Shown piece by piece: positions 35,511 through 39,075 of a DNA stretch of 39,075 nt. Made by a program: the position numbers and the translations under genes. The notes below the pieces were generated by a model. That model made no database searches. It had not been told where the DNA came from and saw nothing but the letters and a program-made list of their open reading frames with translations. Numbering within the stretch: position 1 is the stretch's first letter; every line of letters begins with the position of its first letter. The DNA lies in assembly GCF_012952065.1 (NCBI RefSeq), contig NZ_JABCJJ010000024.1:1-39075 (forward strand), read 5' to 3'. Source of the stretch: Cellulomonas fimi (GTDB lineage: Bacteria > Actinomycetota > Actinomycetes > Actinomycetales > Cellulomonadaceae).

Positions 35511-36863
35511 TCAGATCGCCGCCGCGAACGCGGAGTCGAGCACGTCGAGCGCCTCGTCGAGCAGCGCGCCGGGGATCGACAGGGGCGGGAGGAACCGCAG
35601 CACGTTCCCGTCCGTGCCGCACGTGAGGACGATGACGCCCTCCGCCCGAGCCGCCACGGCGACGGCCGAGGTGAGTGCGGCGTCGGGCTCGCGCGTGGCC
35701 GGGTCGACCAGCTCGACGGCGAGCATCGCGCCCCGCCCGCGGACGTCGCCGACGCGCGGGTCGCGGGCCTGGAGCGCCCGGAGCCGAGCGGTCACGCGGT
35801 CGCCGATCTCGGCCGCGCGCGCGACGAGGCCCTCCTCCCGTACCGTGTCGAGCGTCGCGAGCGCGGCAGCGCACGCGATCGGGTTGCCGCCGTAGGTGCC
35901 GCCGAGCCCGCCCACGTGCACCGCGTCCATGATCTCCGCCCGCCCGGTCACGGCGGACAGCGGCAGGCCGCCGGCCAGGCCCTTCGCGGTGACGACCAGG
36001 TCGGGGACGATCCCCTCGTGCTCGCTCGCGTACATCGTGCCCGTGCGCGCGATGCCGGTCTGCACCTCGTCGGCCACGAACACGACGCCGTTCTCCCGGC
36101 ACCAGTCGACGAGCGCCGGCAGGAACCCGGGCGCGGGCACGACGAACCCGCCCTCGCCCTGGATCGGCTCGATCACGAGCGCCGCGAGGTTCTCGACGCC
36201 CACCTGCTTCTCGATCGTCGCGATCGCCCGCCGGGCCGCGGTGACGCCGTCGAGCCCGTCACGGAACGGGTACGAGACGGGCGCGCGGTAGACCTCGGGC
36301 GCGAACGGCCCGAACCCCGACTTGTACGGCTGGTTCTTCGCCGTGAGGGCCATCGTCAGGTTGGTGCGGCCGTGGTAGGCGTGATCGAACGCGACCACCG
36401 CGTCCCTGCGCGTGAAGGACCGCGCGATCTTGACCGCGTTCTCGACCCCCTCGGCGCCCGAGTTGAACAGCGCCGTCCGCTTCTCGTGGTCCCCGGGCGT
36501 CGCGGCGTTGAGCGCCTCGGCCACGGCGACGTAGCCCTCGTACGGCGTGATCATGAAGCAGGTGTGCGTGAACGCAGCCACCTGCGCCTGCACCGCCTCG
36601 ACCACCGCCGGCGCGCTGCTGCCCACCGTCGTCACCGCGATGCCCGAGCCCAGGTCGATGAGGGAGTTCCCGTCGACGTCGACGACGACGCCGCCCCCGG
36701 CCGCGGCCGCGAACACCGGCATCGTGGTGCTCACCCCGCGCGCGACGGCGACCGCCTGTCGCGCCGCCAGCTCGCGCGAGCGCGGGCCCGGGATCTCGGT
36801 GACGAGGCGGCGTTCCTGGACCAGCGCGGGACCACCCGCGCGGAGGGGGGTGGTGGTCGGCAT
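35511..36863 (-). CDS. gabT: 4-aminobutyrate (GABA) aminotransferase
   Basis: The 450-residue class III PLP aminotransferase moves the amino group of GABA to 2-oxoglutarate, giving succinate semialdehyde and glutamate. Motifs: FNSGAEGVENAVKIAR (phosphate-binding), FDHAYHGRTNLTMALTAKNQPYK, the catalytic-domain PIQGEGGFVVPAPGFL and VFVADEVQTGIARTG. The PLP-binding lysine is in VTAKGLAGGLPLSAV near residue 290. The N-terminus LVTEIPGPRSRELAARQ is typical of actinobacterial GabT. AGGAG lies upstream of the ATG, and a TAGCGT -10 candidate is at 36929-36934. No gabD (semialdehyde dehydrogenase) adjoins it. Confidence 0.95.
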   Translation of the reverse strand: MPTTTPLRAGGPALVQERRLVTEIPGPRSRELAARQAVAVARGVSTTMPVFAAAAGGGVVVDVDGNSLIDLGSGIAVTTVGSSAPAVVEAVQAQVAAFTHTCFMITPYEGYVAVAEALNAATPGDHEKRTALFNSGAEGVENAVKIARSFTRRDAVVAFDHAYHGRTNLTMALTAKNQPYKSGFGPFAPEVYRAPVSYPFRDGLDGVTAARRAIATIEKQVGVENLAALVIEPIQGEGGFVVPAPGFLPALVDWCRENGVVFVADEVQTGIARTGTMYASEHEGIVPDLVVTAKGLAGGLPLSAVTGRAEIMDAVHVGGLGGTYGGNPIACAAALATLDTVREEGLVARAAEIGDRVTARLRALQARDPRVGDVRGRGAMLAVELVDPATREPDAALTSAVAVAARAEGVIVLTCGTDGNVLRFLPPLSIPGALLDEALDVLDSAFAAAI

Positions 36864-36939: not shown

Positions 36940-37914
36940 TCACAGCCCCGGCGCGCACGGCCCCCTGCCGAGCGCGGCGAGCCCCGCGAGGTCACCCGCC
37001 TGGAACGCCCCCTGCCCCTGGTTGACCGGGTGCATCAGCTGCGTCGGGTCGTCGACGTGCCCGAGGCCCACGAGGTGCCCGAACTCGTGCCGCAGCGTGC
37101 CCAGGTAGGCGGGTTCGCCGTCGTGGTCTGGCCACGAGAGCAGCTCGGTGTCGAGGAAGACCGCCCCGGACACCAGGTGCCGGGTGCCGGTCGTCGGGTC
37201 GGTCGACATCGTCTGCCCGGCCACGCCCGCGACGCCGCCCGCGAGCGCCGGCGTCGCCGTCTCGTCCGCGAACCGCACCAGGACAGGTGCCCACCGGTCG
37301 CCGTAGCGCGCGTGCTGGAAGGCGGCGCGCGGAAGGGTCGCGGGTTCCGTCGTCGTGCCGTCGTCGGCCAGCACCAGGCCCGACGCCGCCTCGACCTCGT
37401 GCGCGACAGCGCGGACCCGCTCGGCGAAGTCGGGCGGGGCGCTCGCCGGGTCGACGACGTACGTGAGGGGCCGGCACGGCGACCAGGAGACGGGGATGGC
37501 CGCGCCGTCGGGTGCCGTGTCGGTGTGGTTGAAGGCGAAGGTCGCGTCGCTCGAGGGGACGAGGGGCGCCGCGAGCAGGCGCGCGGGGGCCTCGACGCCC
37601 GGGGTCGGGAAGTCGCGGTCCTCGGGTGCGGGCAGCCGGCCGGGGAGGTGGACGCCCGTGGCGTCGGCGACCGTGCCGAGCGCGTCGCGGACCACCTGCG
37701 GGTGGCTGACGCCCTGCGCCACGCCGGCGGCGACGAGCACCAGGCTGAGCGCGGTGCGCAACCCGGGGCGGACAGCGGCCGAGCGGACGCGCGTCGACCG
37801 GACAGGATCCGGCCGGATGTGGATCGGCCGGACGTGGTGAGGCCAGACGTGGTCCGGCCGCGCGGGGGTGCGGTCGGCGAGCGGCTCCGTCGCGAGATCG
37901 GGCGCCGTGGTCAC
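36940..37914 (-). CDS. Secreted or membrane-anchored zinc metalloprotease (matrixin-like)
   Basis: The 324-residue protein has a His/Arg/Pro-rich cytoplasmic N-terminus (1-52), one hydrophobic helix (about 53-70, ALSLVLVAAGVAQGV), a linker, then a metzincin-like domain. The zinc site is HEFGHLVGLGHVDD (HExxHxxGxxH) near 280, followed by a Met-turn candidate TQLMHPVNQGQG. CRPLTYVVDPASAPP is typical of the first strand of this group. It should act outside the membrane; its target is unknown. The GTG start has no clear ribosome site. The N-terminal stretch with repeated [H/D]xVRPxH motifs is unusual and may be disordered. Confidence 0.88.
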   Translation of the reverse strand: MTTAPDLATEPLADRTPARPDHVWPHHVRPIHIRPDPVRSTRVRSAAVRPGLRTALSLVLVAAGVAQGVSHPQVVRDALGTVADATGVHLPGRLPAPEDRDFPTPGVEAPARLLAAPLVPSSDATFAFNHTDTAPDGAAIPVSWSPCRPLTYVVDPASAPPDFAERVRAVAHEVEAASGLVLADDGTTTEPATLPRAAFQHARYGDRWAPVLVRFADETATPALAGGVAGVAGQTMSTDPTTGTRHLVSGAVFLDTELLSWPDHDGEPAYLGTLRHEFGHLVGLGHVDDPTQLMHPVNQGQGAFQAGDLAGLAALGRGPCAPGL

Positions 37915-37984
37915 GGCACATTCATCGGCGGGTGCGCCGGTGGGTTGAGCACTCGCCCAGCGCGCGCGCTCGCGGCCGGCACCC

Positions 37985-37990
37985 TACCGT
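37985..37990 (+). promoter_or_regulatory. -10 box TACCGT, leaderless promoter of the YidD-like gene
   Basis: TACCGT ends 6 nt before ATG 37997, with CACGCC between. Confidence 0.6.
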
Positions 37991-37996
37991 CACGCC

Positions 37997-38293
37997 ATGA
38001 GACCCGACCGCATCACCACCGCCCCGGCCCGCGCGGTCGACCACCTCATCGGCCTGTACCAGGACCGTGTCTCGCCCCGGAAGGGCTGGAGCTGCGCGCA
38101 CCGCGTCGCGCACGACGGCGAGTCCTGCTCGGTCGCGGTCCGCGACATCGTCCGACGGCGTGGGCTCCTGCGCGGCGTCGTCCCCACCGGGCTGCGGTTC
38201 CTCGCCTGCTACCGCGCCGCGAGCCTCCTCATGGCGAGCGACGTGCGCGGCGTCTGCTGCTGCGGCCCGATCCCGATCCCGTTCAAGTTCTGA
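37997..38293 (+). CDS. yidD: YidD-like membrane protein insertion efficiency factor
   Basis: The 98-residue protein matches the divergent YidD branch: LIGLYQDRVSPRKGWSCAHRVAHDGESCSVAV, with the two conserved cysteines spaced as in family members. GLLRGV follows, then a distinctive tail with three adjacent cysteines, CCCGPIPIPFKF. YidD proteins aid insertion of proteins by YidC at the inner membrane. The normal partners rnpA and yidC are not here, so this is probably a second, unlinked copy. The three consecutive cysteines are worth noting; they could be acylated or bind metal (inference). It is divergent from the metalloprotease. Confidence 0.82.
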   Translation: MRPDRITTAPARAVDHLIGLYQDRVSPRKGWSCAHRVAHDGESCSVAVRDIVRRRGLLRGVVPTGLRFLACYRAASLLMASDVRGVCCCGPIPIPFKF

Positions 38294-38412
38294 CGGGCGC
38301 CCTGAGGTACTGACGGGCGCCCGGAGGGCGACCGGTTCCGAGGTACTGCGAGGTGCGCGGAGCGTCGGGCGGCACGCTGGGGGGTCCTTTGCGGCACGGT
38401 CATCGGGCCGGG

Positions 38413-38418
38413 TAACCT
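38413..38418 (+). promoter_or_regulatory. Promoter of tRNA-Ser(GCU): TTGCGG, 18 nt, TAACCT
   Basis: The -10 TAACCT (38413-38418) with the -35 TTGCGG at 38389-38394 lies just before the tRNA. Confidence 0.55.
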
Positions 38419-38428
38419 GTCCCAGCCT

Positions 38429-38517
38429 GGAGACGTCGCATAGCCAGGTCTAGTGCGCGACCCTGCTAAGGTCGTGAAGGGGCAACCCTTCCGTGGGTTC
38501 AAATCCCACCGTCTCCG
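38429..38517 (+). tRNA. tRNA-Ser(GCU)
   Basis: An 89-nt cloverleaf. The acceptor GGAGACG (38429-38435) pairs with CGTCTCC (38510-38516), with discriminator G 38517. The anticodon stem CGACC/GGTCG holds loop CTGCTAA with anticodon GCT at 38465-38467. It has a long variable arm and T-arm GTGGGTTCAAATCCCAC. CCA is not encoded. Confidence 0.96.
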
Positions 38518-38526
38518 CACTGCAGG

Positions 38527-38554
38527 GCCCCGGTCGCCGTCATGGGACCGGGGC
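38527..38554 (+). terminator. Intrinsic terminator of tRNA-Ser(GCU)
   Basis: GCCCCGGTC (38527-38535) pairs with GACCGGGGC (38546-38554) around a 10-nt loop, followed by TTTCTG. Confidence 0.8.
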
Positions 38555-38659
38555 TTTCTGCTGCGGGGTTGCCGCCGCCGGGGCCGGATCCTTCCGTGCG
38601 GGTGATGTGCGCCGAGCGACGACGTGAGCCCCGCGTTTGGGTGATCCCTCGCGGGACGC

Positions 38660-38665
38660 TATCCT
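38660..38665 (+). promoter_or_regulatory. Promoter of tRNA-Arg(ACG): TTGGGT, 17 nt, TATCCT
   Basis: The -10 TATCCT (38660-38665) is spaced 17 nt from TTGGGT at 38637-38642 and 21 nt before the tRNA. Confidence 0.6.
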
Positions 38666-38686
38666 CGTCTCCGGCCGTACGGCCAC

Positions 38687-38759
38687 GCGCCCGTAGCTCA
38701 ACGGATAGAGCATCTGACTACGGATCAGAAGGTTGGGGGTTCGAATCCCTTCGGGCGCA
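38687..38759 (+). tRNA. tRNA-Arg(ACG)
   Basis: A 73-nt cloverleaf. The acceptor GCGCCCG (38687-38693) pairs with CGGGCGC (38752-38758), with discriminator A 38759. The anticodon stem TCTGA/TCAGA holds loop CTACGGA with anticodon ACG at 38720-38722 (A34 is read as inosine). The T-arm GGGGGTTCGAATCCCTT is present. CCA is not encoded. Confidence 0.96.
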
Positions 38760-38780
38760 CAGTGAGATCTCGGCTGTGAG

Positions 38781-39070
38781 ATCTCGGCCCCAGGACCCGC
38801 GTCCTGGGGCCGAACTCGTTCCGGAGTACGGAGAGGATCACGGAGACAACTGCGTTTTCCCTGGTCACAGAGGTCGATGCGGGTGCCGATGTCGATGCCG
38901 TGCGCGGGACGCCGGAGCGAGCAGGGCTTCCCGCCGCCGCACGCAGGCTCCACGCCGCCCTGTCGCACCCGCATCGACCTCTGTGACCAGGGAAAACGCA
39001 GTTGTCTCCGTGATCCTCTCCGTACTCCGGAACGAGTTCGGCCCCAGGACGCGGGTCCTGGGGCCGAGAT
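38781..39070. repeat. 106-bp perfect inverted repeat with a 78-nt spacer
   Basis: 38781-38886 is the exact reverse complement of 38965-39070; the spacer is 38887-38964. Each arm contains its own smaller hairpin (see the terminator entry). The element begins 22 nt after tRNA-Arg and ends 5 nt before the window edge. No gene is visible in it. It may be genuine or a fold-back assembly artefact. Confidence 0.9.
38785..38812 (+). terminator. GC-rich hairpin after tRNA-Arg, likely terminator
   Basis: CGGCCCCAGGAC pairs with GTCCTGGGGCCG around a 4-nt loop, 26 nt after the tRNA. An inverted copy sits at 39039-39066 as part of the long inverted repeat. Confidence 0.65.
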
Positions 39071-39075
39071 AGATC

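Follow-up and report, generated by a model that had tools for sequence, protein, structure and literature searches.

Results

Features at the right end of contig C17

The window, i.e. the whole 39,075-nucleotide stretch of DNA that was analysed, corresponds to the entire contig C17 of a draft assembly of 83 contigs (3.55 Mb). Two tRNA genes are located near its right end, and an Rfam search of positions 37900-39075 at the gathering threshold returned these two tRNAs and nothing else. The second, tRNA-Arg(acg), is followed by an inverted repeat (Table 1). In a preliminary description of this DNA, the repeat had been presented as a perfect 106-bp structure around a 78-nt spacer, next to tRNA-Arg and with a short direct repeat beside its left arm. 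All of these features were confirmed; the tRNA gene lies to the left of the left arm, and the direct repeat has a full length of 13 nt. A GC-rich hairpin just past the tRNA is perhaps a candidate terminator, although no run of T follows it, and might favour folding and poor coverage.

Table 1. Features at the right end of contig C17 (window coordinates) and their reading.
Feature	Position	Strand	Evidence or remarks
tRNA-Ser(gct)	38429-38518		
tRNA-Arg(acg), genuine gene	38687-38760	+	ARAGORN; Rfam tRNA at 38687-38759; 92-97% match in 4/4 same-genus genomes
Two 13-nt direct copies of GTGAGATCTCGGC; second extends into left arm	38762-38774, 38776-38788	not assigned	
Left arm, probably genuine chromosome; 38781 read as 5' end of a folded strand	38781-38886	+	continuous with tRNA-Arg region
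GC-rich hairpin with 13-nt stems, just past the tRNA	38784-38813	+	imperfect copy at 39038-39067
Spacer, read as the hairpin loop; sequence probably genuine until close to 38964	38887-38964	+	unique loop; no second good place in own genome
Right arm, probably copied artificially from the left arm	38965-39070	+	106/106 complementary; stops exactly at AGATC
AGATC, read as first five bases of an Illumina adapter	39071-39075	+	contig then ends

When the repeat was folded as RNA, a z-score of -29 was obtained and none of 100 shuffled sequences was equally stable. As an interior control, 400,000 bases of the same genome, taken from 20 stretches, were searched for inverted repeats within at most 1.5 kb. 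The longest exact match of the same kind was a palindrome of 42 nt (two 21-nt halves), while the longest pair of separate arms measured 29 nt. Judged from the fold z-score and this control, the string is far beyond chance.

The repeat stops five bases short of the end of C17. These bases, AGATC, are identical to the start of Illumina adapters, which is given as AGATCGGAAGAGC in a passage of PMC11596026, and we infer that they are an adapter remnant. A longer adapter is absent from the window, in which a 13-base adapter pattern gave no matches with up to two mismatches. Unique sequence on both outer flanks, as a genuine repeat would have, was not found, since the right flank consists of the five adapter-start bases and the contig end, with no unique chromosomal sequence.

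At the opposite side of the contig, positions 1-90 of the window are common to five other contig ends, which indicates that C17 begins in a multi-copy repeat. By eye, these 90 positions resemble the end of an insertion-sequence gene. An aminotransferase encoded at 35514-36863 matched 80 loci in genome_contigs, all from other actinobacteria and 67-77% identical, and by these matches the genome looks actinobacterial.

Comparison with related genomes and sequence databases

Past the tRNA-Arg region, which is conserved in the same genus (Table 1), the four relatives continue into ordinary sequence that differs in each of them, and their tRNA-Arg loci contained no exact inverted repeat longer than 15 nt. 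Outside its own genome, the segment 38760-39075 had as best matches only short ones of 31-43 nt, with E-values of 0.002 or worse. The preliminary description had proposed to search arm and spacer in related genomes; among 220 further genomes from the family, nothing matched well. In the organism's own genome (G000), the repeat was seen nowhere but in its own place. Patterns of 29 and 21 bases from the spacer had no exact matches in genome_contigs and viral_contigs. Against phages, the segment 38760-39075 gave a short weak match to one record (E 0.3), and against plasmids short weak matches to 25 records, of which the 20 listed had E-values of 0.08-1.

In three of the 220 family genomes, short stretches matched the spacer side at 81-84% identity, with E-values of about 4e-6. 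None of the three loci contained a tRNA and, by eye, the matches looked like parts of different genes; they were judged to reflect chance similarity of GC-rich DNA. A coding function for arm and spacer was rejected on similar grounds: one frame on the + strand is open across the spacer, and its 42 residues matched weakly in 3 of the 220 genomes, with E-values of 0.002-0.006 that were also attributed to GC-rich chance. The true continuation of C17 was sought by way of proteins encoded downstream in the relatives, and the counterparts of the two that were tried sit well inside other contigs of the organism's own genome (C67:81690 and C56:40387).

In G001, one of the relatives, 43 nt at C1 60544-60586 are identical to part of the tRNA-Arg region and are located 14.7 kb from the whole gene (75301-75411). 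The sequence past tRNA-Arg in this genome resembles, by eye, a tyrosine-type integrase. Judging from its sequence, G001 probably carries an element integrated at tRNA-Arg.

tRNA genes are common integration sites, and the left arm of the perfect repeat in C17 adjoins one. Together with the G001 copy, which indicates that elements may enter at tRNA-Arg, this is compatible with a real 106-bp inverted repeat past tRNA-Arg whose strong hairpin, which could hinder sequencing, or whose repetition, during assembly, ended the contig. Against such a repeat stands the finding that neither arm nor spacer was matched well in the 220 family genomes.

Survey of contig ends

Of the 166 contig ends in the assembly, 162 were surveyed, with those of C79, C80, C82 and C83 left out; 45 were masked and 117 were readable. 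AGATC terminates three of the readable ends, namely the start of C9, the end of C17 and the end of C56. An end was considered unshared when its last 35-base piece was found in no other readable fetched end. This applied to 22 ends, some of which may match masked contigs, as status was judged against readable ends alone. All three AGATC ends were among these 22. With the AGATC frequency taken from the same pieces, the binomial probability of at least three such ends was 2.2e-6 when the 22 unshared ends were considered and 3.4e-4 when all 117 readable ends were. The other 19 unshared ends lack AGATC, which counts against a fold-back origin.

At the start of C9, the 20-nt arms of an inverted repeat stop exactly where AGATC begins, as at the end of C17. 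By itself, AGATC at an arm end would be weak evidence, as it comprises five bases only; jointly with the C9 start it is strong evidence. If the repeat in C17 were real, AGATC would have to occur by coincidence at both of these ends, each time exactly at the arm end. Terminal arms of at least 20 nt were present in 1 of 8120 interior control windows (400 bases each) versus 2 of 117 contig ends. The end of C10 also carries a perfect terminal inverted repeat (99 bp; L049 136-234 and 502-600), which is flush with the contig end, lacks AGATC and continues for 13 further matching bases past one mismatch. This repeat spans 465 bases and is outside the count of terminal arms. The end of C56 has AGATC and no terminal inverted repeat; here, the five bases are probably a plain adapter remnant. 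The run of 29 G residues (29 C when read outward) with which C26 starts may be one more artefact of sequencing where a contig breaks off.

The presence of GATC in all three AGATC ends would also fit a contig end that is chimeric for another cause, either through whole-genome amplification, whose chimeras can be inverted too, or through cutting at GATC in a restriction-digest library. A digest does not require the A that precedes GATC at all three ends, whereas the adapter does; moreover, just 3 of the 22 unshared ends have AGATC, and the arms stop before the A rather than at GATC. This origin is considered extremely unlikely, and even if it were true, the repeat would be artefactual.

The gap between contigs C10 and C9

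Genes at the end of C10 and the start of C9 are neighbours in all four same-genus genomes, one of which is a single contig. In each relative, both matched stretches are on one contig and one strand, at distances of 149 (G003), 131 (G002), 44 (G001) and 23 (G004) bases. The gene pieces at the two ends matched no Pfam family. At the corresponding loci of the four genomes, no exact inverted repeat longer than 18 nt was found. Most likely, therefore, the two ends flank a single gap with repeats on both sides that are absent in the relatives; as these are other species, the comparison is strong, not final. That two ends facing one gap carry repeats absent in 4/4 relatives also speaks against a real repeat at the end of C17.

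Overlaps between contig ends

Seven end-to-end overlaps were found among the readable ends, six of exactly 127 bases and one of 30. In addition, 135 pairs of ends had 121-127 bases in common in the same direction. The 127-base overlaps suggest an assembly graph with k = 127. Real arms of 106 bp are shorter than this overlap and should not, alone, have stopped the contig; running out of reads, by contrast, would stop one. The same value sets a demand on a fold-back at C9, which alone would represent a 101-base fragment and, being shorter than 127 bases, would need several k values, longer molecules or another course of events.

Discussion

Two readings of the repeat had been offered in the preliminary description, a new mobile or replication-associated palindrome and a fold-back or chimeric assembly end. 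The former found no backing in the analysis: spacer patterns were without a match, the family genomes held no good one, and no marks of an element were seen nearby. The latter is strongly supported by AGATC after the repeat, the second such dead end, the C10/C9 gap and the 127-base overlap. On this sequence evidence, the repeat is almost certainly a library fold-back artefact at a contig dead end rather than part of the chromosome. Left arm and spacer probably represent true chromosomal sequence, and the right arm is probably a copy. It is very unlikely that the contig was ended by a real repeat past tRNA-Arg, and equally unlikely that a genuine repeat is limited to one species, for example within an element integrated at tRNA-Arg, with AGATC present by coincidence.

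The arms, the position of AGATC, the second dead end and the C10 repeat were observed, and from them we infer the molecular steps and the missing coverage as follows. A single strand with its 5' end at 38781 and its 3' end near 38964 would have folded, so that the 3' end paired near 38886. Extension of the 3' end by a polymerase to the strand's own 5' end would then have created a perfect complement of 38781-38886. After ligation of an adapter to the resulting blunt end, the first five adapter bases would have remained in the data. With no true coverage beyond the spacer, the assembler would have followed the fold-back molecule and halted at the adapter. Some observations count against a fold-back: the model gives no account of why exactly five adapter bases were left at three ends, C56 has AGATC without a repeat, and C10 has a repeat without AGATC.

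Recognition of the artefact removes a false lead of a striking kind. Searches for long hairpins across draft genomes could be misled by ends of this type, and a quick test is suggested for such finds. Does the repeat lie at a contig end, and does it stop at AGATC or, at a contig start, begin after GATCT? Are other dead ends alike, and are the arms shorter than the contig overlap?

Length alone is no proof of an artefact, since long perfect inverted repeats are described in PMC13155455 as occurring, albeit rarely, in complete bacterial genomes; this precedent also favours a real repeat in C17. For libraries made by sonication or enzymatic cutting, PMC10908179 describes chimeric reads with inverted repeats. 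The repeat in C17 resembles these chimeras, which form from partly single-stranded DNA while the library is being made, whereas the setting of that study is capture sequencing of human DNA, with false variant calls as the outcome, instead of contig ends. Interrupted-palindrome reads have been reported from historic and ancient DNA (Star et al., 2014; PMC3946424); they had a higher AT content and were seldom seen in a modern sample, whereas the DNA of C17 is GC-rich, which counts against a fold-back. In the mechanism proposed there, a single strand forms a hairpin and primes synthesis from its 3' end, with its 5' part as the template; an A overhang is then added, forked Illumina adapters are ligated, and amplification gives products of increased clonality. 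The structure in C17 fits this hairpin self-priming artefact. In comparison with that account, it is long-armed and GC-rich and is found in a finished contig rather than in reads. It shares with those reads a perfect inverted repeat and, as read here, a genuine loop, a 3' arm copied from the 5' end and termination at an adapter.
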